Assembly (NCBI RefSeq): GCF_947503415.1
Contig: NZ_CANNDS010000002.1
Coordinates: 1,054,001 to 1,118,000, forward strand
Origin: an uncultured Tateyamaria sp.
GTDB lineage: Bacteria > Pseudomonadota > Alphaproteobacteria > Rhodobacterales > Rhodobacteraceae
Reading direction: 5' to 3'
Length of the DNA: 64,000 bases
Shown: positions 33,233 through 61,560 of the stretch, in pieces
How the letters are laid out: every line of letters starts with the position of its first letter
How positions within the stretch are numbered: position 1 is the first letter of the stretch
Notes under the pieces: model-generated
Seen by the model: only the letters and a program-made list of their open reading frames with translations
Told to the model about the DNA's origin: nothing
Database searches by the model: none
Translations under genes and position numbers: made by a program

Positions 33233-33263
33233 GAGAGGGCGGGGCCACCTGCCCTCTCTCTTT
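33233..33263 (+). terminator. Intra-operon attenuator after the binding-protein gene
   Basis: GAGAGGGC pairs with GCCCTCTC around a 10-nt loop (33233-33258), followed by TCTTT. It lies between the binding protein and first permease, the usual place for a partial terminator that boosts the binding protein. Confidence 0.6.
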
Positions 33264-33284
33264 CCCATCGGTCCGAGACATCCC

Positions 33285-34517: not shown

Positions 34518-34524
34518 GTGTGGG

Positions 34525-34645
34525 AACTACAAAACAAGTTTGTGGCGCGCCTGCGGCGGGCGGGGGAAGCGCGCTGCGCGCGCAAGGGCTCTGCCCTTCG
34601 ACCTGCGGCCTCATCCCGGAGTTTATCTGGCAAGATGAAGGAGGA
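34525..34645. repeat. REP-like palindromic spacer between the two permease genes
   Basis: The 133-bp non-coding spacer holds successive small dyads: GCGCGC-TGC-GCGCGC (34569-34583, as overlapping GC pairs) and AAGGGC-TCT-GCCCTT (34584-34598). They are followed by CATCCCGGAGTTTATCTGGC and AAGATGAAGGAGG. The final part resembles a motif I recall near gene ends in Rhodobacteraceae. It also supplies the ribosome-binding site of the next gene. Confidence 0.45.
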
Positions 34646-34650
34646 TCGGC

Positions 34651-45525: not shown

Positions 45526-47622
45526 TCAAGCAGGACGGCCATCGGCATCGCCAAGATCATAGATGCCGCCCGTCAACCAAGCGGGCCAGTCGCGTTCGAA
45601 TACGGACGTTGTATTCTCATCGAATTGTCGGTTTGGGCGCATGCGGATCACCATCTTCGTCCCATCCAGCCGAACAAGAATTTGGGTTTGCATGTCCTCG
45701 TGGCGTTCCGGGCGGAACCGGGTTTTTGGCAGTGGCCCCGTCCGCGCTTCGGGCAAGGACGCGCCTTCGGGATCACAGATCGCACGCGCACCCCTGCTCC
45801 CGCCCCCCTGCGCGATATAGAAATCAAGCGCTGAAAGCACGGCCTCGGACGCCAGCGCCATCTGTTGCCATTGCAGAACCCGACCAGCTTCGCTGGTGCG
45901 CGCGAAGGAGATGCCATGCCGACGGATCGCCGTATTCAGTTGTTGGGCCTCAACATGCGCCTGCGCGACATCTGTGGCGGTGCACAGGATGCCAGCGTGG
46001 TCACTCATTCTGGCCTGAACATCGGCGCGGACGCTTCGGATGGTCTGGGGACTGTCTGCCTTCAGAACGGCTTTGATGTCCTTGACTGCCACAAGGGCTT
46101 GGGCACTTGCGTCTTGATTGGATGGCTTGGCGGCATGCCCGCCCGCAGCCACATGTTCGGCGACCCGCGTGCCAAAGACCTGACCCGCATTCAACGCAGA
46201 CCCACCCGGACGGGTCGCGCCATGGGTGCCCGCGGCCTCGCCCACGGCATAGATCCCGGCGATATTCGTGCGCCCCCAGGTGTCGACCGCGATGCCACCG
46301 TTCATGTGTTGATTGTTCACCGCAAACTCCAGAGGCGCAGCGGTGATGTCGACCTTGTACCGCTTGTAAAGTTCGATCGCGAGCGGGTTCATGTGGCTCA
46401 AGCGGTCAATGGGCAGGTCCTGCCCCGCGCCCGCAGCGCTCAGGTAAGCGGCTACATCATCATCCAACCGGTCCAGACTGAACGGCGCATCCCCCGGCAC
46501 CGGCAACAGATTGCGATTGAAATCGAGAAAGACCTGCCGCCCCTTCTGGTTCTCGCGAAAGATCGCCAGATCCACGAGGCTGGACTGGAAGTCCAACATG
46601 CGGCTGGCATGGAACGGCCATTGATAGCCCTTGCGGAAGATGTTCGACGCCATCTCTTGGGTGGTGCGGTAGTAGTCTGCAAGAAAGTGATGTTCGTTGC
46701 CCGCCGCGTCGCGTGAAAAGATATGCGGAATGACCTGTACGTAAGTGCCTGACAGGTTCCACGGAAACCCTTCACGCCGGGTGCCGATGCCAAACTGGCT
46801 TTCCGTGATGTTGACCAGTTCCAGCCCCGTCTCCAAGGCAACGCCAAGGGTGCCGAAGCAGCCGTTCGGGAACACGCTGTCGCGGTACAACTCACCCGGA
46901 CCACCTGCGGCAAACACAAGGGCCGCGCATTGAAACAGCGCCAGACCGTAAGGGTTCGCCTTGCTGCTGGCCTTTGGGCGGATGGTTAAGACACCAACCA
47001 CACGCGCGTGATCCCCCTGCCCTTCGGTCAGCACTTTGACGGCAGTGGTGTGGTTGTAGAACGGGATGCCCTGCCGCAACGCCTCTTCGGCCAGAACCTT
47101 GACCATGAGGCGCGAGGTGCGCGGCCCGCACGATGTCGCGCGCCCGACCTCGTCATGGTCCGTCTGGTATCGCAACGTGCCGCCCAGATTATCCTGCGGC
47201 AGGGGCAACCCGAGGTATTGCAGCGACGCCATGGCCCGAACCGACCCGACCGCCTCGACATAGGCCGTGTCTTCGTCCATCGCCCCGCCCGCACGGATTG
47301 CAGCGGCCATCGCCTTGAAATTGTCGCCCTGATCCTTGGTATTGGCGGTGTGCAGCGTCTGCTTGTCCGACCCGGAACAGGCCGAGGTTCCGCCCCAGGC
47401 GCTTTGGCTGATGATCACGACATCGACAGCGCGGCGCCTCATCTCGACAGCCGTGCGCAGCCCGGCCGCGCCACTGCCAATGACAAGGCCGCCGCATCGA
47501 AAGACAGGAATGTCGAACCCAGCAACCGTCAGATGGTCCACCGGATCGGGCTCGCCACCCAGCCGCGGCATCGCCACATCGGTCAGCGCATCAAGAATAT
47601 GCTGGGGAACGGACAGGCTCAT
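45526..47622 (-). CDS. FAD-dependent oxidoreductase, fumarate reductase/succinate dehydrogenase flavoprotein-like
   Basis: This 698-residue flavoprotein has the dinucleotide motif GLVIGSGAAGLRTAVEMRRR, then GGTSACSGSDKQTLHTANTKDQGDNF and a second FAD segment ALVFAAGGPGELYRDSVFPNG. The region QHMNGGIAVDTWGRTNIAGIYAVGEAAGTHGATRPGGSALNAGQVFG matches the fumarate-reductase-like C-terminal FAD site. No iron-sulfur or membrane partner subunit is adjacent, so it may act alone or with an unlinked partner. It is the last gene of the LacI regulon, 31 bp after the Gfo/Idh gene. GAGGA precedes the tandem ATGs at 47625/47622. Confidence 0.82.
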   Translation of the reverse strand: MSLSVPQHILDALTDVAMPRLGGEPDPVDHLTVAGFDIPVFRCGGLVIGSGAAGLRTAVEMRRRAVDVVIISQSAWGGTSACSGSDKQTLHTANTKDQGDNFKAMAAAIRAGGAMDEDTAYVEAVGSVRAMASLQYLGLPLPQDNLGGTLRYQTDHDEVGRATSCGPRTSRLMVKVLAEEALRQGIPFYNHTTAVKVLTEGQGDHARVVGVLTIRPKASSKANPYGLALFQCAALVFAAGGPGELYRDSVFPNGCFGTLGVALETGLELVNITESQFGIGTRREGFPWNLSGTYVQVIPHIFSRDAAGNEHHFLADYYRTTQEMASNIFRKGYQWPFHASRMLDFQSSLVDLAIFRENQKGRQVFLDFNRNLLPVPGDAPFSLDRLDDDVAAYLSAAGAGQDLPIDRLSHMNPLAIELYKRYKVDITAAPLEFAVNNQHMNGGIAVDTWGRTNIAGIYAVGEAAGTHGATRPGGSALNAGQVFGTRVAEHVAAGGHAAKPSNQDASAQALVAVKDIKAVLKADSPQTIRSVRADVQARMSDHAGILCTATDVAQAHVEAQQLNTAIRRHGISFARTSEAGRVLQWQQMALASEAVLSALDFYIAQGGGSRGARAICDPEGASLPEARTGPLPKTRFRPERHEDMQTQILVRLDGTKMVIRMRPNRQFDENTTSVFERDWPAWLTGGIYDLGDADGRPA

Positions 47623-47652
47623 CAATCAAATCCTCTGCAAACCGTCCATGGA

Positions 47653-48816
47653 TCAACCAATCTCGACCCACCTGTTTTCACGAGAAGATTCCATGCACGC
47701 GTCCACGATCTGACAGATGTGATGGCCTGTCTCGAATGTCGGCCACATCGGCTGGTTCGAGACGATGGACTTGATGACTTCGGCTACTTCAATGATCTTG
47801 CCCTCGTTATAGCCCAGCGCGAAATTGGGCAGCGGCAGGAAGGCACGAAAGGTCTCATGCTCCGGGCCGACATCAATTTCGCGATAACCGCGTCGACCAA
47901 CCTTGTCGTCGTTTGAATAGAAACGCAGCCGGTTCACCTCGTCATAGGTGTAGGTCAGGCTGCCCTTGGTGCCGTAGATCTCGTAGGTTTGCATGAACTT
48001 GCGCCCCGTCGCCACGCGACTGAAGTCCACCAACCCGCGCGCACCGCCTTCGAACCGACACAGAATGTTGGAGCCATCGGGGTTCGTGACATCGGACCAC
48101 GCCTCGTCACCGGTCAGAACCGTCTCCTTGCCATATCCGAAATTGTCCACAACGGGGCGCTTTTCGGTCACAATGAAATTGTCCGCAATCAACGCACTGA
48201 CCTTGCCGACCAGAAACTCCATGAAACTGAAGACATGACTGCCCGTGTCGCCGATCATTCCCGTGGGGGCCAGATCGCCATTGGCCCGCCACATGAACGG
48301 AGCCAGCGGATCGCCGTATATGTCCACGTGTTGGCAGGCCTTGAACAACGTGATGTCGCCAATCTCTCCGGCGTCGATGATCTCTTTGGCAAGGTCATGC
48401 ACCGGGTTGCGCGGGAAAGAGTGTCCGACACGAGTGATCAGCCCCTTTTCGTTGGCAATGTCCGCCAATTCGCGCGCCTGTGCTGCGGTGTCGGCCAAAG
48501 GCTTTTCACAATAGACATGCTTGCCCGCCAACAGGGCCGCCTTGGCCACCTCGTAATGCAGGTTGTCAGGCAGGCAGATGTCGATCAGATCCACGTCCGG
48601 GTCGGCAACTGCCTCTTGCCAAGTGCCAAGGATCTTCGCGCCGGGCGCGCGAAAGGCAAGGCTCTTTGCCGCATCCACATCGGTTTCGACCAGCGCCACA
48701 ACCCGGGCGGTCCCATCACCGTCACCAAAGAAATGCGGGAAACTTTGATAGGCCATTGTGTGCACCTTGCCCATCCACCCGGACGCGCCCAGAACGGCCA
48801 CCTTTACTTCTGTCAT
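47653..48816 (-). CDS. Gfo/Idh/MocA family oxidoreductase
   Basis: This 387-residue NAD(P)-dependent sugar-type oxidoreductase has the Rossmann VAVLGASGWMGKVHTMAYQSF, the EKPLADTAAQ motif with the catalytic Lys, and DTGSHVFSFMEFLVGKV in the C-terminal domain. It has its own upstream operator (TGGAACGTTCCA at 48845-48856) between it and the LacI gene. It probably acts on a cyclic polyol or sugar intermediate of the same pathway. GGAGAGGG lies just before its ATG. Confidence 0.9.
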   Translation of the reverse strand: MTEVKVAVLGASGWMGKVHTMAYQSFPHFFGDGDGTARVVALVETDVDAAKSLAFRAPGAKILGTWQEAVADPDVDLIDICLPDNLHYEVAKAALLAGKHVYCEKPLADTAAQARELADIANEKGLITRVGHSFPRNPVHDLAKEIIDAGEIGDITLFKACQHVDIYGDPLAPFMWRANGDLAPTGMIGDTGSHVFSFMEFLVGKVSALIADNFIVTEKRPVVDNFGYGKETVLTGDEAWSDVTNPDGSNILCRFEGGARGLVDFSRVATGRKFMQTYEIYGTKGSLTYTYDEVNRLRFYSNDDKVGRRGYREIDVGPEHETFRAFLPLPNFALGYNEGKIIEVAEVIKSIVSNQPMWPTFETGHHICQIVDACMESSRENRWVEIG

Positions 48817-48844
48817 ATCCCTCTCCTTTCATCCCGCTCCGGTC

Positions 48845-48856
48845 TGGAACGTTCCA
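48845..48856. promoter_or_regulatory. LacI operator upstream of the Gfo/Idh-flavoprotein pair
   Basis: TGGAACGTTCCA is a perfect 12-bp palindrome with central CG. It is identical to the copy at 61539-61550 and lies 29 bp before the Gfo/Idh start. A further dyad, AAACCG-N10-CGGTTT (48872-48893), lies upstream of it. Identity between sites 12.7 kb apart supports a shared regulator. Confidence 0.8.
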
Positions 48857-48908
48857 CTCTACTCGCATCGAAAACCGAACATGCGGTCCGGTTTGCAAAA
48901 TGATTGTG

Positions 48909-49913
48909 TCAGGCGCCGCTCGACGCCCGCTTGATCAGGGCGACCGGGCTGCGCGCGGTCATGCGTGGTACTTTGCCATCCTTGACCCATGCCAGGATTT
49001 GCTCTGCCGTCGACGTCGCAAAGTCAGGGATATTGCAACTGACAGAGGTCAAGGGCGGATAACTGTCCCGGCAATCTTCGATGTCGTCAAATCCGACCAC
49101 GCGCAGGTCCCTGCCGATCTTCACGCCAAGTTCCGGCCCCGCCGCCAACACGCCCAAAGCGACAAGATCGTTAAAGCAAATCACACCATCCACCTCTGGA
49201 TGATCAGCCCGAAGCTGTGCCGCCGTTGCCTTTCCAAAAGCCCGCGTCGCTTGTCCGGTCAACACCACCGGCTCCATCCCGTTGTCAGCCAGCACGGACA
49301 AGTAGCCGCTCATGCGTTCTTCGGTCACGGCGCGCCCCTCTAGCCCCCCCATGAAGGCGATCCGTTTGCACCCCATCTCAAGCAGATGCTCAGTGGCAAG
49401 GCGACCACCCAGGTCGTAATCAGGCGCAACGAAGGGGAATTTGGGATCACCGGATGTCAGCGACCGGAACACCTGTATCGTGGGTGTATTGGACGCCTCC
49501 AGTACCGCAAGCGTCTCTTGCGTGCCCCCGTAGCTGGGCGAAATGATGAACCCCGACACACCGTGCTCCACCAGCGAAGAGATCATGCGCGTCTGAAGCT
49601 CTGGGTCTTCGTCAGAATTGGCAAGAACCGTGGCAAAGCCATTGCGCGCAAGCTCCATCTGAAACAGGGCCGCAAATTCGGTGAAAAACGGGTTTCGCAA
49701 GTCATTGATCACCAGACCGATCAGTCCGGACGACGATGACCGCAGCGTCGCCGCCGACCGGTTGTAAACATACCCGATCTCCGCCATCGCCTCGCGTACG
49801 GCCACTCGGGTCGCTTCCTTGACCGCCTTTGATCCCTGCAAAACAAGGCTGACCGTGGATTTCGACACACCGGCCTGTTTCGCAACATCCAAAATGGTGG
49901 GCCGAGGTTTCAT
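48909..49913 (-). CDS. LacI family transcriptional regulator
   Basis: This 334-residue LacI-type repressor has the HTH TILDVAKQAGVSKSTVSLVLQ and the hinge SAATLRSSSSGLIGLVI. The effector domain includes FVAPDYDLGGRLATEHLLEMGCKRIAFMGG and VDGVICFNDLVALGVL. I prefer ATG 49913 because the HTH normally begins within a few residues. An ATG at 49952 would add 13 residues, and neither has a strong ribosome-binding site. It lies inside the operon after the Dabb gene and is the expected reader of the GGAACGTTCC sites. Confidence 0.88.
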   Translation of the reverse strand: MKPRPTILDVAKQAGVSKSTVSLVLQGSKAVKEATRVAVREAMAEIGYVYNRSAATLRSSSSGLIGLVINDLRNPFFTEFAALFQMELARNGFATVLANSDEDPELQTRMISSLVEHGVSGFIISPSYGGTQETLAVLEASNTPTIQVFRSLTSGDPKFPFVAPDYDLGGRLATEHLLEMGCKRIAFMGGLEGRAVTEERMSGYLSVLADNGMEPVVLTGQATRAFGKATAAQLRADHPEVDGVICFNDLVALGVLAAGPELGVKIGRDLRVVGFDDIEDCRDSYPPLTSVSCNIPDFATSTAEQILAWVKDGKVPRMTARSPVALIKRASSGA

Positions 49914-49964
49914 ATCGCCGCGCTGTCCAATCGTTGTGCGTTGCCGCCACATCCCTGCCTGAAC

Positions 49965-50273
49965 CTAAACATCCAGATCAAGCACCAGAATTCCGTCAAT
50001 CCCGCCAACCGCGTTGGCAACAAGCTGGCCGCCCAGCGCCTGATGTTCGGGGTTGTCTGCATAGCTTTGCAGGGCATCCCAACTGTCAAAGTCGATGACG
50101 AAGCCATGCATGTAGCCACGTTCAATCTGTTCGGGACTTTCGGACCGTCCACCCGTGAAGCTCTGCGCACCGGGCAGTGTGTCGGCCAGCGCAGACAGAC
50201 CGGCATAGATCTCTGCGATCCTGTCTTCGGGCGTCTCGGGTTTGAACTTGGTCAGAAAGATGTGACGGATCAT
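49965..50273 (-). CDS. Dabb family protein (stress-responsive A/B barrel domain)
   Basis: This 102-residue single-domain dimeric alpha/beta-barrel protein begins MIRHIFLTKFKPE and contains the conserved GYMHGFVIDFDSWDALQSYADNPEHQ. Dabb-fold proteins include enzymes acting on polyketide-like or lactone intermediates as well as proteins of unknown role. It overlaps the GMC gene by 4 nt, so it is an integral part of the operon. A catalytic or intermediate-handling role in the pathway is inferred only from position. Confidence 0.85.
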   Translation of the reverse strand: MIRHIFLTKFKPETPEDRIAEIYAGLSALADTLPGAQSFTGGRSESPEQIERGYMHGFVIDFDSWDALQSYADNPEHQALGGQLVANAVGGIDGILVLDLDV

Positions 50274-51865
50274 GGGTTCATTCCTTGGTCTTGCTTGATC
50301 ATGTCAGCGGCCTTCTCGCCAATCATGATCGAAGGCGCGTTGGTGTTGGATGAGTTGACGGTCGGCATCACCGACGCATCGGCCACCCGAAGGCCGTCGA
50401 TCCCGTTGAACCGCAAGCGCGGATCAAGGACGGCTTCCGCATCGCTGCCCATCCGGCAGGTGCCCGCGCAATGATGCGAGGTTTTGGAGTGCACGCAGAT
50501 GAAGTTGAAATACTCCTCATCCGTGCGCACATCCGGCCCGGGCAGACGTTCGGCCATGATGTACGGTTTCAGCGCATCTTGGGCGAGGATGTCCTGCACC
50601 AGCTTCAGGCCGCGGATCGACATCTCGCGGTCATAGTCTTCGGACAGGTAATTCGGGTCGATCAACGGCATATCGGCGGGGTTGTCGCTTTGCAGGCGCA
50701 CCGTCCCGCGCGACCGCGGACGCAAGTGGCACGCATTCAGCGTCACACCCCCGTTGGGCATGGCCTCGACCCCGGCTTCGATGCCGGTGCCAAGACCCAG
50801 ATGCATCTGGATATCGGGCGAGCGGGCATTCTCATCCGCGTACCAGAACCCACCCGTCTCAAACAGGCTGGAGGCAACGGGCCCCTTGCGCGTGAACAGA
50901 TATTGCAACCCTGCCAGCGCAGACAGATGCAGCTTGGCAAAACGGTCATACGTGTGGGGCCCCGTCACCTCGCAAATCGCATAGAGGTCCAGATGATCCT
51001 GCAGGTTCGATCCAACGCCCGGGCGATCAAGCATCACGTCGATCCCAAGCGGCGCAAGCGCGTCCGCCGGACCGATGCCTGACAGCTGCAAAAGGCGGGG
51101 AGAGCCAATGGCTCCCGAGGACAGGATCACTTCGCGATCCGCCGTGATCCTGGTGCCATCACCCATTTCAACGCCCGTGGCACGGCCATTCTCGACCGTG
51201 ATCCGACGCACCTGCGCGTTCATTTGAATGGTCAGGTTTTGGCGTGACTTGGCAGGGGCCAGAAACGCCATCGCCGCCGAAGACCTGCGCGCATTGCGTT
51301 GGGTCAGTTGGTAGTAACCGGCACCATCCTGCTTTGGCCCGTTCACGTCGGTTGTCTTGGGTATACCAAGCTGCCCCGCCGCTTCGATGAACGCATCACA
51401 GATCGGCAACGGGGCTGCTGGCATCGACACCCCCATCGGGCCACCCGCACCGTGATATTGGCCGTCATACGTGTCGTTGTCTTCGGATTTCCGGAAATAG
51501 GGCAGGACATCGTCATAGGCCCAGCCATCACAGCCCATCTGCCGCCATTCATCGTAATCCTGCGCTGCACCACGTGTGTAGATCTGCGCGTTGATGGCGG
51601 ACCCGCCCCCAATGACCTTGGCTTGGGTGTAGTTGAACACCTTGCCCTGCATGGACCGCTGCGGCGTGGTGGACCAGCCCCAAGACCCAATGCCCTTGGT
51701 CATCTTCGCGAAACCTGCAGGCAGATGAAAGAACGGGTGCCGGTCGCTTCCGCCAGCCTCCAGCAACAGAACGCGCGCATCTGGGTTTTCGGACAGGCGT
51801 GCCGCAATGACCGACCCGGCAGATCCCCCGCCGATCACGATGAAATCATACCCGGCGGCCGTCAC
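50270..51865 (-). CDS. GMC family oxidoreductase (choline/alcohol dehydrogenase-like)
   Basis: This 531-residue flavoprotein has DFIVIGGGSAGSVIAARLSE, GMC signature 1 (KVIGGGSAINAQIYTRG) and signature 2 (SSGAIGSPRLLQLSGIGPA). The C-terminal catalytic His lies in TSHHCAGTCRMG, followed by SSNTNAPSIMIGEKAADM. It is expected to oxidise a primary or secondary alcohol to an aldehyde or ketone. It overlaps both neighbours by 4 nt and pairs with a second, divergent GMC enzyme. Confidence 0.92.
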   Translation of the reverse strand: MTAAGYDFIVIGGGSAGSVIAARLSENPDARVLLLEAGGSDRHPFFHLPAGFAKMTKGIGSWGWSTTPQRSMQGKVFNYTQAKVIGGGSAINAQIYTRGAAQDYDEWRQMGCDGWAYDDVLPYFRKSEDNDTYDGQYHGAGGPMGVSMPAAPLPICDAFIEAAGQLGIPKTTDVNGPKQDGAGYYQLTQRNARRSSAAMAFLAPAKSRQNLTIQMNAQVRRITVENGRATGVEMGDGTRITADREVILSSGAIGSPRLLQLSGIGPADALAPLGIDVMLDRPGVGSNLQDHLDLYAICEVTGPHTYDRFAKLHLSALAGLQYLFTRKGPVASSLFETGGFWYADENARSPDIQMHLGLGTGIEAGVEAMPNGGVTLNACHLRPRSRGTVRLQSDNPADMPLIDPNYLSEDYDREMSIRGLKLVQDILAQDALKPYIMAERLPGPDVRTDEEYFNFICVHSKTSHHCAGTCRMGSDAEAVLDPRLRFNGIDGLRVADASVMPTVNSSNTNAPSIMIGEKAADMIKQDQGMNP

Positions 51866-53355
51866 GCGGCAAACTCCGTCTGTTCTATGTGCCGGCCGGC
51901 GCGCAAGGCGAGAGCGGCAATGGTCAGGGCCGGGTTCACAGCTGCCGATGTGGGCAGGACAGACGCATCGACGATGAACAGGTTCCCGTGGTCATGGCTG
52001 CGGCAGAACGTGTCGACCACACTGGTCGCCGGGTCGTTGCCCATGCGCGCGGTACCGCATTGATGCGACGGTGTGCGCCGGTCAAAGGCCTGCGCAAGCA
52101 CAATGGGAAACCCCGCGCGCCGCAACGCCTGTTTCAGCGTTGCCACAAGCCGCTGATGCGCATCCCAATTGGACCGTTGCCAGTCGAGCTTGATCCGTCC
52201 GTTTTTCAATGTGACCCGGCTGTCCGGATTGGGCAGGTCCTCGGACATCGCATAGAAATCAAAGCTGCGCGCGGCGATCCACCGGGCCGCCCATGTCGGC
52301 AGTTTCGAATTGGCGGCAAGGATCGGCGCGGTGATTTTACCCAGCATCTGGACGTTGCCCAAAGGAAGCTGATCCTCGGACCCAAGGTAAAAGTCATTCA
52401 GCATCAATGTCTTCTGATACACTGCCCCGTTACGCCGCAACGGGTGCAGCGCCATCACGGCAGAGCAGTTGTGGTTCATGAAATTGCGCCCGACCTGATC
52501 AGACCGATTGGCCAGTCCCGTGGGCCAGTTGTCATTTGCCGACGCCAGCAAAAGCGCCGCCGTTTGCACCGCGCCTGTCGCCACGACAAAAACCGGCGCC
52601 GCAATTGTCTCCGCCGCCCCGTCCACCTCTACCTCGACGCTTTGAATGCGCGCGTCCGTCCCGGCCCGAAGCGCAGTGACGCGGCACCTTGTCCGAAGCT
52701 CCACATTGGGATGCGCCAATGCAGCTTTCAGCGCACATGTTTCCGCATCCATCTTGGCCCCGCAGGTGTTCGGATACGCGTCCCATGTCGTCTGCCCCGC
52801 CGCGAGCCAGCCGTCGAGATCGACGCCCAGCGGGATTGATGAGGGGTGCAATCCAGCCGCTTTCAAGCGGTCGCGCAATTGGGCGATATCGGCTTCATGC
52901 GGGACAGCGTCATACGGGTATGTGCCGGAATGCGCAGGCTCAGTCGGGTCATCGCCCAAGGCACCACGCACGGCGTATAAGTGTTCAGCCGCCTGATAAT
53001 CAGGCTCAAGGTCAGCGTAGGATATCGGCCAGCCCGCCGTTGCACCTCCCGCGTGTTGGCATTGCTCAAAATCGGTCGCGCGATACCGGATCAGCGCTGC
53101 GCCATAGAACTTCGAATTGCCGCCGACGTTATAGTAGTTGCCGGGATTGAACGGGGTGTCCGCGCCGTCCAGCCAATCCTCGTCCGAACGAAAGACACCC
53201 TTGCCAAATATCGCTGTTGCATCACGATCCCACGCGGAAGGGCACAGGTGCTCGCCGCGTTCCAGTATGAGGATGCGACGCCCTGTCGGGGCAAGTGCCG
53301 CCGCCAAGGTCGCGCCCCCCATGCCAGATCCGATGATAACGACATCGGGCTGCAT
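51862..53355 (-). CDS. GMC oxidoreductase, sugar dehydrogenase/pyranose oxidase-like group
   Basis: This 497-residue flavoprotein has VVIIGSGMGGATLAAALAPTGRRILILERG at the N-terminus, NVGGNSKFYGAALIRYR in the GMC signature 1 position, and PSHQCGTARMG with VNPALTIAALALR at the C-terminus. It is more like sugar-oxidising GMC enzymes (glucoside 3-dehydrogenase and pyranose oxidase relatives) than choline dehydrogenases. ATG 53355 overlaps the ATPase stop by one base; longer frames run through the ATPase gene. No small gluconate-2-dehydrogenase-type subunit is adjacent. Confidence 0.85.
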   Translation of the reverse strand: MQPDVVIIGSGMGGATLAAALAPTGRRILILERGEHLCPSAWDRDATAIFGKGVFRSDEDWLDGADTPFNPGNYYNVGGNSKFYGAALIRYRATDFEQCQHAGGATAGWPISYADLEPDYQAAEHLYAVRGALGDDPTEPAHSGTYPYDAVPHEADIAQLRDRLKAAGLHPSSIPLGVDLDGWLAAGQTTWDAYPNTCGAKMDAETCALKAALAHPNVELRTRCRVTALRAGTDARIQSVEVEVDGAAETIAAPVFVVATGAVQTAALLLASANDNWPTGLANRSDQVGRNFMNHNCSAVMALHPLRRNGAVYQKTLMLNDFYLGSEDQLPLGNVQMLGKITAPILAANSKLPTWAARWIAARSFDFYAMSEDLPNPDSRVTLKNGRIKLDWQRSNWDAHQRLVATLKQALRRAGFPIVLAQAFDRRTPSHQCGTARMGNDPATSVVDTFCRSHDHGNLFIVDASVLPTSAAVNPALTIAALALRAGRHIEQTEFAA

Positions 53356-54467: not shown

Positions 54468-54472
54468 AGGTC

Positions 54473-55357
54473 TTATCCTTTGACTGAACCGGCCATCAAA
54501 CCGCGCACGAAATAGCGGCCAGCGACGATGTAGACGAGAAGTGTGGGAAGTGCGGCAAGGATCGCCCCGGCGAAGTGGACGTTGTATTCCTTCACCCCGT
54601 GGCTCGCCTGCACCAGATTGTTGAGCGCGACGGTCATTGGCTGGCTGTCGGCCCCGGCAAAGGACGCGCCAAACAGGAAGTCATTCCAGATATTGGTGAA
54701 CTGCCAGATGATCGAAACCACGGCGATCGGCCCGGAGGACGGCAACAGGATGCGCCAGAAAATCTGAAAGAACCCGGCCCCGTCAATCTGGGCGGCCCGG
54801 ATCAGCTCGGTCGGGAAAACGGCGTAGTAGTTTCGGAAGTACAGCGTGGTGAACCCGACGCCATATACCACATGGACCAGAACCAGCCCCCACGTGGTGC
54901 CGGCAAGCCCCATCAACCCCAGCATCTTCGCCATGGGGATCAGCACGATCTGGAACGGGATGAAGCAGGCAAACAGGATCAGGCCAAACACGATGGTGTC
55001 GTATTTGAACCGCCATTTCGTCAACACATAGCCGTTCAGCGCACCCAATACGGTAGAGATGGCCACGGCGGGCACGACCATCTTGATGGAGTTCCAGAAA
55101 TAGGGCGACAGCCCGGTCGGCTCCACGCCGATCTGGGCCGAGGACCACGCCTTGGCCCAAGGCTCCAGCGTAAAGACCTGCGGCAGGTTCATCATGCCGC
55201 CGCCCGTAATCTCTTCCAGCGGTTTGACCGAATTCACGACCATGACGTAAAGCGGCAGCATGTAGAACAGAACGAACAGCAGCAGCACAAGATAGATCAG
55301 CGTGCGCATGACGCGGCCTGTGCGAATGGCGGTATCCTGGGTCGCGATGGACATCAC
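54473..55357 (-). CDS. Carbohydrate ABC transporter permease (MalG type)
   Basis: This permease is of standard length (294 residues) with six TM segments. The first is LIYLVLLLFVLFYMLPLYVMVVNSVK, and the EAA loop region reads ELIRAAQIDGAGFFQIFWRILLPSSGP. The end RYFVRGLMAGSVKG is typical of the family. It overlaps the MalF-type gene by 4 nt. Unlike the MalG-type protein at 34651, it has no N-terminal extension. Confidence 0.93.
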   Translation of the reverse strand: MMSIATQDTAIRTGRVMRTLIYLVLLLFVLFYMLPLYVMVVNSVKPLEEITGGGMMNLPQVFTLEPWAKAWSSAQIGVEPTGLSPYFWNSIKMVVPAVAISTVLGALNGYVLTKWRFKYDTIVFGLILFACFIPFQIVLIPMAKMLGLMGLAGTTWGLVLVHVVYGVGFTTLYFRNYYAVFPTELIRAAQIDGAGFFQIFWRILLPSSGPIAVVSIIWQFTNIWNDFLFGASFAGADSQPMTVALNNLVQASHGVKEYNVHFAGAILAALPTLLVYIVAGRYFVRGLMAGSVKG

Positions 55358-56250
55358 TTCTTCTCCCGCAATTCGGCATAAAGATATGGGATCATGATCG
55401 CGGCGATGGTCATCAGCATGATGGTGGCCGACGCGGCACCGATCCCCATCTGATTGCGCGAGAACGTGTAGGAATACATGAACGTCGCAGGCAGTTCCGT
55501 GGCGCGTCCGGGCCCCCCGCCGGTCAAGGCGATGACCAGATCAAAGGTCTTGATCGCAAGATGGCTCAGGATCACGAACGCAGACAGGAAGGCGGGGCGC
55601 AGTTGCGGGATGATGATCCGGCGATACAGGTTCCAGTTCGACGCGCCATCCATTTGGGCCGCCTTCAGGATCTCGTTGTCGATGCCGCGCAGCCCGGCCA
55701 GAAACATGGCCATCACAAACCCGCTGGTTTGCCAGACGGCGGCCAGCACGACGGTGTAAATCGCGTAGTCCCGGTTCTTGATCCAGTCGAATTCGAAACT
55801 GGTCCACCCCCAGCTTTGGATGACGTTTTCCAGACCGATCCCCGGATCAAGGAACCATTTCCACGCGGTGCCGGTCACGATGAAACTCAGCGCCATTGGA
55901 TAGAGGTAGATGGTGCGGATCATGCCTTCGCCGCGGATTTTCTGGTCAAGAAATATGGCAAGGCCAAGGCCCAGCATCGTGCAGATGCCAATATAAAGGG
56001 CGGCAAAGACGCCCATGTTCTTCAGTGAGATTTCCCAATGGCTCAGGCGCCACAGCTTGGAATAGTTCTCCCAACCGACCCAGCCGAAGGACGGCAGCAA
56101 CCTACTGTCGGTAAAAGACAGGTAAACCGAAAACAGGATGAAGCCGTAGACAAACACCAGAACAAGGGCCAGCGACGGCGACAGCACCAGTTTCGGCAGC
56201 CAGGACTGGAGCCGCGTTTTGAAATCTGCGTTGGTGGACAAAGCCATCAC
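55354..56250 (-). CDS. Sugar ABC transporter permease (MalF type)
   Basis: This 298-residue permease has six TM segments and lacks a large periplasmic loop. It opens with LVLSPSLALVLVFVYGFILFSVYLSF, and the EAA region reads NEILKAAQMDGASNWNLYRRIIIPQLRPA. The start is GTG 56250 or the adjacent ATG 56247, after GGAGGG. It partners the MalG-type permease. Confidence 0.92.
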   Translation of the reverse strand: MMALSTNADFKTRLQSWLPKLVLSPSLALVLVFVYGFILFSVYLSFTDSRLLPSFGWVGWENYSKLWRLSHWEISLKNMGVFAALYIGICTMLGLGLAIFLDQKIRGEGMIRTIYLYPMALSFIVTGTAWKWFLDPGIGLENVIQSWGWTSFEFDWIKNRDYAIYTVVLAAVWQTSGFVMAMFLAGLRGIDNEILKAAQMDGASNWNLYRRIIIPQLRPAFLSAFVILSHLAIKTFDLVIALTGGGPGRATELPATFMYSYTFSRNQMGIGAASATIMLMTIAAIMIPYLYAELREKK

Positions 56251-56290
56251 GCACCCTCCTTGGGCCGATGTGACAGGGCAGTGAGAAATG

Positions 56291-56319
56291 GGTGGAGTAG
56301 CATGTTCCGCCGCTCCACC
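56291..56319 (-). terminator. Hairpin between binding protein and permease genes
   Basis: GGTGGAG and CTCCACC form a perfect 7-bp stem around a 15-nt loop in the 78-bp gap after the binding-protein stop. As in the other importers here, a partial terminator would favour the binding protein. Confidence 0.45.
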
Positions 56320-56328
56320 ACGCGCTGA

Positions 56329-57579
56329 TTATTTCGCGATATCAACCGCATCGACGAGTTCCTGAACAGCTGTTTCGCTGTCGTACTCGCCGTTGAAATG
56401 CGCGGTCACCACGTCATAAATCGCGTTCTTGACCGACGCGGGGTTCGCGTGACCATGCGCCATGGAACCGAACAGGTTGCCCGAGGACGCAGCAGCCGCA
56501 AGATCAGCCATGCCTTTCTTGCCGCAGGCATCGAACGCCTCGTTCGAGACGTCTGTACGGGCCGGCACCGATCCTTTGACCACGTTGAACGCGGACTGGA
56601 AGGACGGCGACAGGATCGCGGTTGCCAGCGCGGCCTGCTCAGCGGACACCGCGCCGCCCTGATCAAACATCATGAACTGGTCGGCGTTGAATGTGACCTG
56701 CTCGGACGTGCCGGGGAAGCGGAAGCACAGGAAGTCTTCGCCAGGCACTTTGCCTGCGTTGATGAACTCACCTTTTGCCCAGTCACCCATCATCTGGAAA
56801 CCGGCATCGCCATTGATGACCATCGCGGTTGCAAGGTTCCAGTCCCGGCCCGAAAAGTTGTCGTCCACATTGGCGCGGATCACGGACATGCGGTCAAACG
56901 CCTCTTTCATGCCGTCGCTGCCCAGAACATCTGCATCCAGATCGATGAACGCAGCCTTGTAGCCGTCCGGCCCAAGCACCGACATGACAACCGAGTCAAA
57001 AACGGTGGCTTCCTGCCACGCTTGGCCACCATGGGCGATGGGTGTGATCCCCGCCGCTGACAGCGTGTCCATTGCCGCCACGAAGTCGTCCCATGTCTCG
57101 GGCATTGCGATGCCATTGGCGTCCAGCACGGCCTTGTTGGCCCAGACCCAGTTGGTCGAGTGTACGTTCACTGGGGCAGACACCCACTCACCGTTCACTT
57201 TTGCAAATTGCTGCAGCGCGGCCGGGACGACATCATCCCATCCTTCGGCAGCCGCCACGTCGTTCAGGTTGGCCAAAGACCCCTGGTCCGCCCAGTCGAT
57301 GATGTCAAAGCCAAGGCCCTGCACAGCCGTTGGGGCGTTGCCAGCCGTCACGCGGGCGCGCAGTACCGTCATGGCCTGCTCACCACCGCCACCGGCGACA
57401 GGCATGTCCGTCCAGCCGATGCCTTGCCCTTCAAGGTCCTGTTTCAGGACGTTCAACGCTGCCGCTTCACCCCCCGACGTCCACCAGTGCAGCACCTCTA
57501 CATCTTCCGCTGTCGCCGTGCCCGCTGCTACGGACAGCGCGAGTGCAATCGCAGTCTTCGTCTTAAAGAATGAACGCAT
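56329..57579 (-). CDS. Sugar ABC transporter substrate-binding protein
   Basis: This 416-residue family 1 extracytoplasmic binding protein has a signal peptide cleaved near ATA-ED (residue 24). It then has [27 protein letters not shown] and the [19 protein letters not shown] segment typical of glucose/mannose-type binding proteins of the ChvE-unrelated GtsA group. ATG 57579 follows GGGAGG; a longer frame to 57636 overlaps the aldehyde dehydrogenase. The ligand is probably a mono- or disaccharide-like compound. Confidence 0.92.
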
Positions 57580-57611
57580 GGTATCCTCCCATTTTGCGTT
57601 TCGTGTTTCGG

Positions 57612-57626
57612 CGTCTGTGTCAGACG
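57612..57626. repeat. Small hairpin overlapping the aldehyde dehydrogenase stop
   Basis: CGTCTG-TGT-CAGACG has a 6-bp stem and 3-nt loop and includes the stop codon region of the gene ending at 57620. It may stabilise or attenuate the message before the binding-protein gene. Confidence 0.35.
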
Positions 57627-59140
57627 TCGCTTTCAACCCAAGGCGCCCTGCTGCGTCCGATGCGCATGACCAGTGATTTCACCTCAAGAAATTCCTCAAA
57701 TCCATAGCGGCCAATCTCGCGGCCCTGCCCCGATTGCTTGACCCCTCCAAAGGCAAGCTCGGGGTATCCATCCATCCAGGTGTTCGTCCAAACGGTGCCC
57801 GCCTCCACGCGCCGCGCAAATTCGAGGCAAGTATGTACGTTTTCACTCCAAATCCCAGCCGAGAGTCCGTACACGCTATCATTTGTGAGTGAGATCGCCT
57901 CATCGAGCGTCCGGTATGTCATCACCACGAGGACCGGACCAAAGACCTCCGCCCGTGCAATCGCCATATCGGGTGAGACGTTGCTGATCACCGTGGGCTG
58001 GTAGAACTGCGCGCCCAGCCCCTCCACAGGCAACATTCCCCCGCCCAGCTCCAAAGTGGCCCCTGCCGCAACAGCGGCCTGCACGTATGCGTCGATCTTG
58101 GCGTTATGCTCCGGCGTAACAATCGCACCGACTTGCGTGTCCGGGTCCAGCGGGTCCCCGAATTTGACCTTGCGGGACAAGGCAACAACACGCGCCACGA
58201 AATCGGCGGCGATATCCTCGTGCACGATGATCCGGCTGGACGCATTACAGCATTGGCCAACATTGAAATACACACCGAACGTGACCGCATCGGCAGCACT
58301 CTCCAGATCGGCATCGGGGCATATGACTTGCGGGTTCTTCCCGCCAAGCTCAAGTGCGACCTTCTTGAGGGTGTCCGACGACGCCTGCGTGATCAGTTTG
58401 CCCACCGCGGTCGATCCGGTGAACGTCACCATGTCCACATCCTTGTGCGTCGACAGCAGGCTGCCAACCGGTTGCCCATGGCCCAGAACGATGTTGCAGA
58501 CGCCCGCAGGCAACCCTGCCTCCAACAGCAACTCGCCCATCATCACGGTCGAGGACGGCGTCATCTCTGACGGCTTCACCACCACCGTGCAGCCTGCGGC
58601 CAGTGCAAAGGGCAGCTTTTGCGACAGGATCCAGAACGGGAAGTTCCACGGCGTGATGATCGACACGACGCCAATGGGCTCCTTCAGCACAACGCCCAGC
58701 ATATCCTCGCCCAGCGTGTTGTGACTGTCCCCATGCGCGGTGCGGGCCAACGACGCAGCATAGCGCCACAGATCAGCGGCACCGCCAACCTCGCCGCGGG
58801 ATTGGGAAATCGGCTTGCCGCTTTCCAGTGTTTCCTGAACCGCGATCCGCTCCACATTTGCTTCGATCAGAGCCGCAACCCGCAGCAGGACCGTCGCGCG
58901 TTCCTTGCCCGAGGCGCGGCTCCACACGCCCGTATCGAATGCCGTCCGCGCAGCCCCGATTGCGCGTTCCGTGGTGGCGTGATCGCCACAGGCGGAGACG
59001 CTGACCACCGTGCCGTGGGAGGGCGACGCGCGCTCAAACGTCTCCGCACTGTCGACCCACTCCCCGGCAATCAGATGCCGACCCCGAAAAGGGGGTGGAA
59101 GGTCACAATCAATGGCGGCATTTACCGTGAAATCTTTCAT
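57620..59140 (-). CDS. Aldehyde dehydrogenase family protein
   Basis: This 506-residue NAD(P)-dependent aldehyde dehydrogenase has the cofactor segment [31 protein letters not shown], the catalytic Glu in [13 protein letters not shown], and the nucleophile Cys in [13 protein letters not shown]. The end region is [22 protein letters not shown]. The start at ATG 59140 gives the usual length and follows AAGG. It would convert an aldehyde made by a GMC enzyme to the acid, upstream of CoA activation. It lies 4 bp after the enoyl-CoA hydratase gene. Confidence 0.93.
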
Positions 59141-59144
59141 AAGG

Positions 59145-59912
59145 TCAGTTCCCCGTAAAATTCGGGGACCGCTTGTCGAGAAAGGCGTGCACCCCCTCTT
59201 GCCGGTCATCGCTGGCAGCCGCAGCCGCACTGCCAAGGACTTCGATGGCAGCAGCCCGGTCCTCGTCGACGGCTGCGTGGATCATGGCCTTGGCCAATTC
59301 GTTGGCGCGCGGCGACATATCCGCCAGCGATCCAGCGATGTCCTGTGCGGCGGCCAGCGCATCATCCGCCACCTCCGCCGCGAAACCAAGGGCCACGGCC
59401 CGCTCGGCAGTCACCCGACGGCCGAACAGCGCCATCTCCTTGAGAACAGGTTCGGCCAACACACGCGCCAGACGCTGTGTGCCCGACCATCCCGGCACAA
59501 TCCCGACCTTTCCCTCGGGCAGGGCCAGCGTCGCGCGCAGGGTCATCACGCGGATGTCGCAGCACGCCGCCAATTCCAGACCGCCACCGAACGCATGGCC
59601 GTTCAACGCGCCAATGGTCGGCTTCGACAGCCGGGCCAACCGGTCAAACACACGGTGACCGTCACGGACCCAGTTGCGGGCAAATTCGGCAGGGCCAAGC
59701 GGCCCCCACTCTGCAATATCGGCACCACAGCAAAACGCCTTGGTCCCGGCACCTGTGACCACAACAGCCCGCACATCCGTCGCTCGGTCCAGATCGGCCA
59801 AATGCGCTTCCAACTGGCGCAACATCCCGGTCGTCAGGGCATTCAGCTTCGCCTCATTGCTCAGCGTCAGAACGGCCACACCGCCCTCATGGGTACATGT
59901 GACCTCGCTCAT
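59145..59912 (-). CDS. Enoyl-CoA hydratase/isomerase family protein
   Basis: This 255-residue crotonase-fold enzyme has the oxyanion and catalytic loop NGHAFGGGLELAACCDIR, with Glu at the first catalytic position, and LPEGKVGIVPGWSGTQRL, with Glu at the second. Hydratase chemistry is therefore possible. It overlaps the CoA-transferase by 4 nt. Together they suggest that a CoA thioester with a double bond or a beta-hydroxy group is an intermediate of the pathway. Confidence 0.9.
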   Translation of the reverse strand: MSEVTCTHEGGVAVLTLSNEAKLNALTTGMLRQLEAHLADLDRATDVRAVVVTGAGTKAFCCGADIAEWGPLGPAEFARNWVRDGHRVFDRLARLSKPTIGALNGHAFGGGLELAACCDIRVMTLRATLALPEGKVGIVPGWSGTQRLARVLAEPVLKEMALFGRRVTAERAVALGFAAEVADDALAAAQDIAGSLADMSPRANELAKAMIHAAVDEDRAAAIEVLGSAAAAASDDRQEGVHAFLDKRSPNFTGN

Positions 59913-61480
59913 AGGACCAACCCCATCGGGGCTTCCGACAACAGGGATTTCGGCATGGCAGTGGCGTTCTCGGCCACCTGAACCCGCCCCTGCGACGCCG
60001 CAACAATATGGGTTTGCGGGTCGATGCCCGGCATGATTTCAGTCGCCAGCAGACCATTGTCAGTCAGGCGTATCACGCACCGTTCGGTCACATAGATGAC
60101 GTTCTGCCCCTGTTCGCGCGCACGGCGACCCGAGAATGTGACATGCTCCACCTCGTCCACCATCTTGGTGAACTTGCCCGGGGCCGCTATGTCGATGCCG
60201 TCCTCTGTCAGGTTGATCTTGGCACCTGCTTCGAACCAGCCCGAAAACACGATGTGCCTTGCCCGCGCTGTGATGTCCACAAACCCACCGCAGCCTGCCG
60301 TCAAATAGGGCTTCTTGCCCAGCTTCGACACATTCACATTGCCCTCGATGTCGACCTCGAGAAACGACAGGAACGACATGTCAAAGCCCGCGCCCTGGAA
60401 GTAGATGAATTGCTGTGGCGACGGGACAAACGCATCCGCATTTGATGCGCACCCAAAGGCAAAACCGGTCAGCGGGACGCCACCGACAGCCCCCTGCTCG
60501 ATCGCCCATGTCACCGCATCCCGATGCCCTTCCTCAAGCAGAACGCGCGGGATCATCGCGCTGATGCCAAAACCCAGATTGGCGGTCATCCCCTGACGCA
60601 GTTCTTGTGCAGCCCGGCGTGCAATGACCTTCTCCACCCCATGGTCCGCCATCGCAAAACTGTCCCAGGGGCGCATCACCTCGCCCGAAATCGCGGGATC
60701 ATAGGGCGTTTCGGTGGTCTGCTTCTGATCCGGATCGACGACAATGCAGTCAACCAGATGGCCGGGCACGCGCACGTCATGGGGGCGCAAGCTGCCGGTT
60801 GCGGTCACGCGCTTGACCTGCGCAATGACCAGCCCGCCGTTGTTACGCACACAAATTGCCTGTTCCAGGCCGCCCAGATACGCGCCCTCGTGCTCATATG
60901 TCAGGTTGCCCCGTTCATCAGCGGTGGTCGCACGGATGATGGCCACGTCCGGGACGATGTTGGGAAAGTGCAGCCACGTCTCGCCTGCAAACTCAGCGCG
61001 AGAGACAACAGGCGCCGCCGCGCCCAGGTCGTTCATTGCACAGCCCTGCCGGACCGGGTCAACAAACGTATCCAAACCAACCTTGGTCAAAACGCCGGGC
61101 CGGTGGGCCGCAGCTTCACGGTGCATGTCGAACATGATGCCGGATGGCACGTTGTAGGCGGCGACCCGGTTCTCGACGATCATCTTCCAGATGTCCGGCA
61201 TCTCCACGCTGGACGGACCGGACGGGTACGACCCGGCCAGCACACGTGACAACAGACCATCTTTCGCGATGTGATCCATTCCCTTGACGCCATAGACGTC
61301 ACCCGCCGCAATCGGATGCAATGCCGTCAGGTTGCGCGGTTGCCCTTCGTGATCAAAGCGGGCTCCGATGGCTTCAAGAACCGCATCCGGGCACCCAAGC
61401 GTCGAGGATGATGAGACAGAGACAACTGCCCCGTCCTGAATACGGCTGACCGCCTCTCTGGCTGAAACAGTTTTGCGCAT
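59909..61480 (-). CDS. Acyl-CoA:acetate/3-ketoacid CoA-transferase (YdiF-type fused subunits)
   Basis: This 523-residue class I CoA-transferase carries both alpha and beta halves in one chain. The N-terminal half begins KTVSAREAVSRIQDGAVVSVSSSSTLG. The catalytic Glu is probably that in AIEQGAVGGVPLTGFAFGCA, and the C-terminal half has TAGCGGFVDITARARHIVFSG. I chose ATG 61480, directly after GGGGGG; ATG 61498 and a frame back to 61693 are possible, but the latter would cover the promoter and operators. It is the first gene of the LacI-controlled operon and would activate the acid product as a CoA ester. Confidence 0.92.
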   Translation of the reverse strand: MRKTVSAREAVSRIQDGAVVSVSSSSTLGCPDAVLEAIGARFDHEGQPRNLTALHPIAAGDVYGVKGMDHIAKDGLLSRVLAGSYPSGPSSVEMPDIWKMIVENRVAAYNVPSGIMFDMHREAAAHRPGVLTKVGLDTFVDPVRQGCAMNDLGAAAPVVSRAEFAGETWLHFPNIVPDVAIIRATTADERGNLTYEHEGAYLGGLEQAICVRNNGGLVIAQVKRVTATGSLRPHDVRVPGHLVDCIVVDPDQKQTTETPYDPAISGEVMRPWDSFAMADHGVEKVIARRAAQELRQGMTANLGFGISAMIPRVLLEEGHRDAVTWAIEQGAVGGVPLTGFAFGCASNADAFVPSPQQFIYFQGAGFDMSFLSFLEVDIEGNVNVSKLGKKPYLTAGCGGFVDITARARHIVFSGWFEAGAKINLTEDGIDIAAPGKFTKMVDEVEHVTFSGRRAREQGQNVIYVTERCVIRLTDNGLLATEIMPGIDPQTHIVAASQGRVQVAENATAMPKSLLSEAPMGLVL

Positions 61481-61515
61481 GTGCCCCCCAATCGTCATCC
61501 CTGAAATCAGGAAAT

Positions 61516-61527
61516 CGGAACGTTCCA
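61516..61527. promoter_or_regulatory. LacI operator O1 at the expected transcription start
   Basis: CGGAACGTTCCA carries the 10-bp palindrome GGAACGTTCC with one flank changed from the perfect site. It lies just downstream of the -10 element of the predicted minus-strand promoter, where a bound repressor would block the start. Its centre is 23 bp from that of O2. Confidence 0.8.
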
Positions 61528-61531
61528 CATT

Positions 61532-61560
61532 TTGATATTGGAACGTTCCATATTTCTCAA
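61532..61560 (-). promoter_or_regulatory. Sigma-70-type promoter of the CoA-transferase operon with operator O2 in its spacer
   Basis: On the minus strand, TTGAGA (61560-61555) and TATCAA (61537-61532) are separated by exactly 17 bp. The perfect 12-bp palindrome TGGAACGTTCCA (61539-61550) lies wholly inside that spacer. This is a strong repressor-controlled promoter layout for the long operon that follows. Confidence 0.75.

Follow-up and report, generated by a model that had tools for sequence, protein, structure and literature searches.

What is degraded by bacteria that keep a sugar importer, two alcohol dehydrogenases, a coenzyme A (CoA) transferase and an enoyl-CoA hydratase homologue (crotonase) under one LacI-type regulator? 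A cluster of 13 contiguous minus-strand genes of this composition lies in a 64,000-nucleotide stretch of the genome of an uncultured Tateyamaria sp. (contig NZ_CANNDS010000002.1), which was analyzed as a whole and is called the window below. We consider it probable that these genes form a regulon for the aerobic catabolism of 1,5-anhydro-D-glucitol, 1,5-anhydro-D-fructose and 1,5-anhydro-D-mannitol, in which C6 oxidation and CoA loading would lead to exit as 2-keto-3-deoxygluconate (KDG). The evidence is the conservation of the cluster, a linked reductase of established specificity and the genes of KDG use that are linked to the cluster in relatives.

Results

Conservation of the gene cluster

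A sequence-only reading of the window had named the families encoded by these genes, and family or profile matches within the window confirmed them: a fused CoA-transferase, a crotonase, an aldehyde dehydrogenase, an ATP-binding cassette (ABC) importer, two GMC oxidoreductases (GMC1 and GMC2), a Dabb protein, a LacI-family regulator, a Gfo/Idh-type dehydrogenase (Gfo2) and a flavoprotein (Table 1). With the starts as tabulated, neighboring genes overlap by 4 nt or are separated by gaps of 4 to 92 nt. When 148 related genomes were searched with GMC2, the family was found in 17 others at 57–83% identity, after which identity dropped to 44%. All 13 families were present in 8 of the 20 regions fetched around the best GMC2 matches in other genomes, and the CoA-transferase, GMC2 and LacI genes occurred together in 64 of 80 GTDB loci. 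The 80 loci are the best of at least 567 GMC2 relatives and the counts describe that slice, in which contig ends cut some clusters and gene presence was called at 30–55% identity with a threshold set for each gene. The hosts are mainly Rhodobacterales and Rhizobiales, plus a few metagenome bins named otherwise, and the Dabb gene is present in 56 of the 80 loci. As 8 of 20 regions hold every family and 64 of 80 loci keep the three markers, the families co-occur more than expected by chance. The neighborhood comparison suggested with the sequence-only reading thus gave no refutation, and the cluster is a real, conserved LacI-type regulon.

A linked reductase of known specificity

An extra Gfo/Idh reductase gene sits before the CoA-transferase gene in 44 of the 64 loci that keep the three markers. 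In Sinorhizobium meliloti Ak57 this gene lies inside the cluster, between lacI and the CoA-transferase gene, and its product is identical at 332 of 333 residues to PDB 4KOA, a crystallized 1,5-anhydro-D-fructose reductase; against 2GLX, the other Sinorhizobium structure of this enzyme, it scored 625 bits over 331 residues. The Peteryoungia orthologue gave 366 and 364 bits to 4KOA and 2GLX, the next entry scoring 103. The reductase homologue also stands in front of the CoA-transferase cluster in nine of the ten plasmid-collection records whose surroundings were read (in one of the nine, L163, the CoA-transferase is unannotated and in two pieces), and the tenth, Bradyrhizobium pNK6a, keeps only the reductase and GMC2. 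The motif LPPHLQGWR was found in 18 of 43 reductases; here and below, motif counts exclude matches of 45% identity or less, of less than 85% coverage or with a stop.

Reductase and GMC2 homologues occur on several Bradyrhizobium plasmids. In pNK6a (L149:12822-15497) the two genes stand alone in a transposase-rich stretch, the rest of the cluster being absent. One record of the collection, CP090106.1 (L148), is labeled pSymB yet measures 3.72 Mb and looks like a mislabeled S. meliloti chromosome; similar-looking records, of 3.5 Mb, exist for K101, C101 and M103.

The corresponding cluster of S. meliloti 1021 is predicted to span SMc04390–SMc04401. The tags beyond SMc04390–SMc04392 are tentative, being partly counted, and smc04396 is taken to be the binding protein gene from gene order and tag numbers. 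A table in the part of PMC12542648 available to us gives SMc04390 as an L-sorbose dehydrogenase, SMc04391 as a short-chain dehydrogenase and SMc04392 as a dehydrogenase, an order of names that matches the gene order in Ak57. A passage of PMC4960864 reports smc04396 as dextrin-induced, citing another work.

Importer and oxidizing enzymes

The periplasmic binding protein scored 589 bits against PDB 4R2B and 373–382 bits against 5DVF, 8HQQ and 5XPJ, followed by 2B3B, a "glucose-binding protein", at 130 bits. By their entry names the first four bind sugars; we take 4R2B, 5DVF (glucose ligands), 8HQQ and 5XPJ to be glucose-binding and the family to be that called GtsA-like. On these matches the importer would be a glucose-type CUT1 system with a binding protein of the glucose-binding family. 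A pocket of this type would suit the proposed substrate, because 1,5-anhydroglucitol is 1-deoxyglucose. A cyclitol, an aromatic glycoside or a separate acid, substrates considered for the sequence-only reading, is not supported; 1,5-anhydrohexitols are indicated instead by the linked reductase together with a binding protein of glucose type.

The nearest PDB relatives of GMC2 are flavin adenine dinucleotide (FAD)-dependent glucose and fructose dehydrogenases. GMC2 has a weak match to the pyranose oxidase model TIGR02462 (61 of 545 bits), and its H432 and N475 are invariant (12/12). The best PDB matches of GMC1 are a chloramphenicol-inactivating oxidoreductase (390 bits), choline dehydrogenase (350 bits) and alcohol oxidase (345 bits); its HxCxG motif is present in 43 of 76 sequences, and the S. 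meliloti gene at the GMC1 position is named L-sorbose dehydrogenase. For the aldehyde dehydrogenase, ELGGK is found in 69/69 relatives and the stricter GQxC in 39/69, and the orthologue in Rhizobium ACO-34A is annotated "sorbosone dehydrogenase". Sorbose and sorbosone dehydrogenases together convert a sugar CH2OH to COOH. The likeness of GMC1 and the aldehyde dehydrogenase to that pair is one of annotation only, and the substrate proposed here is 1,5-anhydromannitol.

A related importer and GMC2 are paired with a thiamine pyrophosphate-dependent enzyme and a HisD-like dehydrogenase, rather than with CoA genes, at L152:6526-17134 and in the G065 region. This arrangement is possibly another route for a similar sugar.

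CoA-transferase, crotonase and flavoprotein

The CoA-transferase scored 323.6 bits against NF052271, below its cut-off of 750, and the motif E[QS]GxxGG is present in 70 of 70 relatives. Both crotonase glutamates that we take to be catalytic in enoyl-CoA hydratases are conserved in 69 of 69 relatives. The 13 proteins include no thiolase, acyl-CoA dehydrogenase, CoA synthetase or 3-keto lyase, and no glycosidase or lyase. A β-oxidation or short-chain fatty acid operon was rejected because neither a thiolase nor an acyl-CoA dehydrogenase is encoded.

The flavoprotein has no partner subunit within the cluster, and a fumarate reductase function was discarded since its superfamily matches are weak. 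Its AlphaFold model, with a mean predicted local distance difference test (pLDDT) score of 69.5 and long stretches below 50, was not used.

Exchangeable lower halves and the KDG exit

The relatives carry one of two lower halves. Type A consists of the flavoprotein, usually Gfo2 and often a KDG kinase, and type B of a short-chain dehydrogenase/reductase (SDR) and a DUF993 protein, often with a glycerate kinase. The flavoprotein was never found with the SDR or DUF993 (0/80 loci): 36 loci have the flavoprotein alone, 36 have DUF993 alone and 8 have neither. Likewise, the KDG kinase (18 loci) and DUF993 (36 loci) were never together at the threshold used (0/80); a locus with DUF993, L086, has a 30% kinase match some kb away. 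The glycerate kinase always accompanied DUF993 (16/16). Five of the 20 fetched GMC2 regions have the KDG kinase, including G074, which carries the GMC2 nearest to that of the window. In L104, L108, L112, L116, L118 and L119 the kinase gene is part of a unit that runs in reverse, in the order Gfo2, flavoprotein, kinase, and has an operator to itself.

A 2-keto-3-deoxy-6-phosphogluconate (KDPG) aldolase gene directly follows the kinase gene in 6 of 86 loci (L070, L105, L108, L118, L119 and L120) and in two of the 20 fetched regions (G051 and G013), those of L105 and G013 reading in two pieces. The L120 aldolase scored 209.9 bits against TIGR01182 (cut-off 156), and its best model was NF004325 at 221 bits, under that model's own cut-off of 241. 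The model of DUF993 (Pfam PF06187; pLDDT 87.7) was matched by Foldseek to the dihydrodipicolinate synthase (DHDPS)/KD(P)G-aldolase fold. Lys229 is invariant (24/24) and presumably occupies the strand of the Schiff-base lysine of the DHDPS superfamily. The DHDPS-like fold, the solved homologue 4DNH (SMc04132) and the invariant lysine suggest that DUF993 is a Schiff-base aldolase; a partial literature search found no paper with the term DUF993.

Judged by gene content, the two lower halves would be the two classical ways of using KDG, and the linkage of KDG kinase and KDPG aldolase genes to the cluster in relatives is the reason for proposing KDG as the exit. L120, which is cut at its left end, has the SDR together with KDG kinase and KDPG aldolase and lacks DUF993; from this one locus it seems that the redox slot is separate from the KDG slot. 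On a GMC1 tree of 78 rows, made by a quick search and containing four rows with long branches, the module label changed 9 times, of which at least 5 changes are forced by starred branches, versus 25.0 changes for shuffled labels (0/500 shuffles as low). These changes show that the lower halves replaced each other several times, near kin mostly sharing one.

A shared operator

The 12-base palindrome TGGAACGTTCCA occurs in tandem before the CoA-transferase gene and singly before the Gfo/Idh-flavoprotein gene pair. The window has three such sites at one mismatch or less, versus 0.11 expected from shuffles. Only two exact copies occur in the genome, both inside the cluster. With one mismatch allowed, the pattern is no commoner genome-wide than a reversed control (11 versus 14 matches per strand), so only exact genomic sites are informative. 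The operator yielded no further regulon members in this genome, there being no exact site outside the cluster.

Among the 62 relatives with a visible first gene, the operator (one mismatch or less) lies within 250 bp in 51 and is present twice in 44, the tandem layout recurring; of 3019 random windows, 13 had it. The count of 51 is a lower bound since, of the 11 loci counted as misses, at least three (L079, L085 and L089) have sites before the reductase gene and seem to have been missed because of overlapping genes. The operator also precedes the separate Gfo2 units of the six loci with the reversed unit and of L132, and overall only 8 of 24 Gfo2 genes have it within 250 bp upstream. The placement and conservation of the sites are the grounds on which we infer that LacI binds TGGAACGTTCCA. 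By this predicted shared operator the importer, oxidation, CoA and lower parts seem to answer to a single LacI protein, and the idea of one LacI regulon, put forward in the sequence-only reading, is borne out as far as a shared operator before both transcription units shows. Such an operator is indirect evidence that the CoA-transferase part and the transporter part have related promoters and inducers.

At L110:18886-20157 and L134:18812-20125 a second, diverged binding protein (46–47% to the first) has the same operator about 130–460 bp upstream, and in G034, G051 and G013 a similar second binding protein (50–51%) is encoded inside the importer operon. Given these second binding proteins, one importer may serve two ligands.

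Extent of the cluster

The sequence-only reading placed the cluster at 45526–61560. The genes lie there as described; the end at 61560 does not hold well, as it needs a TTG start and a coding stretch with two operator copies inside. A CoA-transferase start at 61498 or 61480 is more likely because the operators at 61539–61550 and 61516–61527 fall inside the longer stretch. The open reading frame containing GMC2, as mechanically called, extends back into the ATPase gene, and the GMC2 gene itself is the shorter one tabulated.

Table 1 Features of the 13-gene cluster and its putative operators, in window positions
Feature	Position	Strand	Match or remark
CoA-transferase, fused alpha-beta type (FadX/YdiF-like)	59909–61498 (start 61498 or 61480)	-	PF01144
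Crotonase (ECH)	59145–59912	-	PF00378
Aldehyde dehydrogenase	57620–59140	-	PF00171, 540.8 bits
Periplasmic binding protein (SBP), glucose-binding family	56329–57579	-	PF01547
ABC permease 1	55354–56250	-	PF00528
ABC permease 2	54473–55357	-	PF00528
ABC ATPase (UgpC/MalK type)	53355–54467	-	NF008653, 455 bits, above cut-off 432
GMC2, sugar-type GMC dehydrogenase	51862–53358	-	PF05199/PF00732
GMC1, choline-dehydrogenase type	50270–51865	-	NF002550, 566 bits, cut-off 605
Dabb dimeric alpha-beta barrel protein	49965–50273	-	PF07876, 76 bits
LacI-family regulator	48909–49952	-	PF00356 + PF00532
Gfo/Idh dehydrogenase (Gfo2)	47653–48816	-	NF052479, 297 bits, cut-off 650
FAD_binding_2 flavoprotein (fumarate-reductase superfamily)	45526–47625	-	PF00890, 104 bits
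Putative LacI operator O1, exact	61539–61550		before CoA-transferase
Putative LacI operator O2, one mismatch	61516–61527		23 bp from O1
Putative LacI operator O3, exact	48845–48856		between lacI and Gfo/Idh gene

A further carbohydrate locus, at positions 28892–37124 of the window, has a glycoside hydrolase of MGH1-like, GH63-related type besides an ABC permease and a GMC paralogue (43% to GMC1).

Discussion

The proposed pathway is conveniently told in the order of its substrates. The glucose-type importer would take up the anhydro sugar, and GMC2 would oxidize 1,5-anhydroglucitol at C2 to 1,5-anhydrofructose. A reductase, the in-cluster Gfo/Idh enzyme of most relatives and possibly Gfo2 in the window, would then reduce 1,5-anhydrofructose to 1,5-anhydromannitol, a reaction published for Sinorhizobium (cited in the part of PMC12441222 available to us) and conjectural for Gfo2. 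GMC1 would oxidize the C6 hydroxyl to the aldehyde, which the aldehyde dehydrogenase would convert to the acid, and the CoA-transferase would load the resulting anhydro-uronate onto CoA. The thioester would acidify H5, allowing the crotonase to eliminate the C4 hydroxyl, which is beta to the thioester; the enol ether so formed would take up water and the ring would open to KDG, to be released as the CoA-transferase passes CoA to the next acid. Dabb is a candidate helper of ring opening. From KDG onward one route would use KDG kinase with KDPG aldolase and the other a DUF993 aldolase with glycerate kinase, and LacI would repress the whole cluster through TGGAACGTTCCA. By our own derivation, C3 and C2 of the manno form become C4 and C5 of D-erythro KDG, whereas the gluco form gives the L-threo acid; C2 would be inverted first because the manno configuration yields the right KDG.

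The outline of import, alcohol oxidation, aldehyde oxidation, CoA transfer and a crotonase step is thus that of the sequence-only reading and is supported, except that the crotonase, there a hydratase, works as a dehydratase in the scheme with KDG exit. Of the scheme, the reductase reaction has been published; co-occurrence of the genes and linkage of the exit modules are observed here, and we infer all that lies between 1,5-anhydromannitol and KDG. Dehydration and opening of a sugar ring at the level of its CoA thioester, with the CoA then handed on and a fatty acid-type enzyme pair in place of the usual sugar-acid dehydratase or lyase, is a proposal to which we give slightly less than an even chance.

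Several observations count against the pathway as drawn. Hydration of the enol ether has no enzyme assigned in it, and the slot filled by the flavoprotein or the SDR in 62 of the 64 loci has no reaction. The C2 specificity of GMC2 is a guess from context, and its nearest solved relatives oxidize C1 of glucose or C5 of fructose. The linked reductase is absent from 20 of the 64 loci, and the genome of the window has no close reductase, the best match (41% over 195 residues, 108 bits) being at the level of generic Gfo/Idh proteins. Gfo2 or the reductase, or both, are present in 59 of the 64 loci, and from such counts it is possible that Gfo2 stands in for the 1,5-anhydrofructose reductase in the window. 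Gfo2 may equally have some other role, since it resembles levoglucosan dehydrogenase, which we take to be a C3 enzyme, and co-occurs with the reductase in 5 of the 64 loci. The KDG kinase is found in only 18 of the 80 loci, and the linked kinase scored 250 bits against NF052444, under the cut-off of 400 (next model, 125). The cluster of the window itself lacks KDG kinase and KDPG aldolase, homologues (39% and 45%) being found only elsewhere in the genome. Finally, the loci are related to one another and their counts are not independent.

The substrates could still be 1,5-anhydrohexitols and the chemistry that of a ketone: Gfo2, the SDR or the flavoprotein would oxidize C3, the ring oxygen would be eliminated and the CoA steps would come later, in a retro-Claisen or β-oxidation-like manner. 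This would put the flavoprotein/SDR slot to use and would suit Gfo2, which scored 297 bits against the levoglucosan dehydrogenase model and 232 bits against 6A3F, a "putative dehydrogenase" by its entry that we take to be levoglucosan dehydrogenase. We nevertheless think it unlikely, as KDG kinase and KDPG aldolase behind the flavoprotein require an intact 2-keto-3-deoxyhexonate and the 13 proteins include neither a thiolase nor a 3-keto lyase.

Alternatively, the cluster might serve two purposes under one regulator: the importer, GMC2 and reductase would send 1,5-anhydro sugars to mannose, and some other alcohol or acid would be broken down by GMC1, the aldehyde dehydrogenase, the CoA-transferase and the crotonase. 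A route to mannose has been proposed for S. morelense, in which an unidentified P450-like enzyme would convert 1,5-anhydromannitol (PMC12441222, in the part available to us), an idea that also weighs against the pathway as drawn. In keeping with two purposes, some clusters have no importer (G029, G086, L068, L124 and L125), and in two Rhizobium records genes for a 3-oxoadipate CoA-transferase and a thiolase lie about 8–11 kb from lacI, beyond another transporter. However, the CoA-transferase, crotonase and aldehyde dehydrogenase genes stay with the reductase gene in two gene orders and in a betaproteobacterium, and relatives have KDG genes linked to the cluster. In the annotated records read, neither a P450 nor a mannokinase or mannose isomerase is given inside the cluster, no wider search having been made. 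The betaproteobacterial case is a Paraburkholderia plasmid (L164 and L174) with the cluster, the reductase, the SDR and DUF993 and without GMC2 within about 36 kb, which is what one would expect were GMC2 required for 1,5-anhydroglucitol alone. We give the two-purpose cluster a still lower chance than the keto chemistry.

Least probable of the explanations considered is the glycoside, polyol or cyclitol of the sequence-only reading, its alcohol part oxidized, loaded on CoA and hydrated and its sugar part handled separately. It accords with the enzyme families and gene order. Against it, the 13 proteins include no glycosidase or lyase, and for completing the breakdown of an aliphatic acid they offer neither an acyl-CoA dehydrogenase nor a thiolase; the binding protein is of a monosaccharide (glucose) family, and the linked reductase is named for an anhydro sugar. 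Aglycone or cyclitol catabolism was dropped for want of a supporting gene.

The preferred 1,5-anhydrohexitol pathway shares parts with several known systems. The gene of the Sinorhizobium 1,5-anhydro-D-fructose reductase lies inside the cluster in S. meliloti Ak57 and in the 44 loci, and where the S. morelense route continues to mannose, C6 oxidation, CoA activation and KDG are proposed here. Gut bacteria degrade the same sugars by a phosphorylated, radical-based and anaerobic pathway (phosphotransferase system, YbiW/PflD glycyl radical enzymes; PMC12441222, as far as available to us), in contrast to the present cluster, known here from genes, which would be ABC-imported, flavin-oxidative and CoA-based. 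A CoA-bound sugar acid has a precedent in Klebsiella michiganensis deoxyribonate oxidation, for which the accessible part of PMC6365646 proposes deoxyribonyl-CoA, a thiolase, a CoA-transferase and glycerate kinase. There the thiolase cleaves a 3-keto acyl-CoA, whereas here a crotonase and a 2-keto-3-deoxy exit are proposed and neither a thiolase nor a CoA synthetase is among the 13 proteins.

The levoglucosan (Lgd) pathway also begins with an anhydro sugar. It was rejected because Gfo2 falls far under the cut-off of the levoglucosan dehydrogenase model (297 of 650 bits) and because the 13 proteins include none of the other Lgd enzymes, such as the LgdB-type isomerase/epimerase, which we take to be a TIM-barrel enzyme. 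With the lower Entner-Doudoroff branch the cluster shares the exit modules of its relatives; here a ring-opened anhydro sugar, rather than the dehydration of gluconate, would feed them.

The sequence-only reading did not recognize the pathway as one already described. For the CoA steps this stands: a partial literature search, limited to leading results, found no published aerobic or CoA-based 1,5-anhydroglucitol cluster and no crotonase dehydration of a sugar acyl-CoA. For the reductase step it does not, that reaction having been published for Sinorhizobium. The portion of a 2025 review available to us states that an analogous oxidative pathway for 1,5-anhydroglucitol was not described (PMC12441222). 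The cluster most likely encodes an aerobic 1,5-anhydrohexitol pathway of which we found the reductase step alone in print.

If shown, the CoA steps would be new sugar chemistry, and CoA-thioester ring opening, if true, would supply the aerobic route that is missing for 1,5-anhydroglucitol. 1,5-Anhydroglucitol ranks among the main polyols in humans, in whom its phosphate causes the neutropenia of glycogen storage disease type Ib and G6PC3 deficiency; 1,5-anhydroglucitol and 1,5-anhydrofructose are starch-related sugars. The cluster, carried by many Rhodobacterales and Rhizobiales, is a gene-level candidate for oxidative use of 1,5-anhydroglucitol. The proposed pathway predicts roles for DUF993 (as an aldolase), GMC2, the CoA-transferase and the crotonase, and would connect starch or algal anhydro-sugar turnover with marine and soil alphaproteobacteria.

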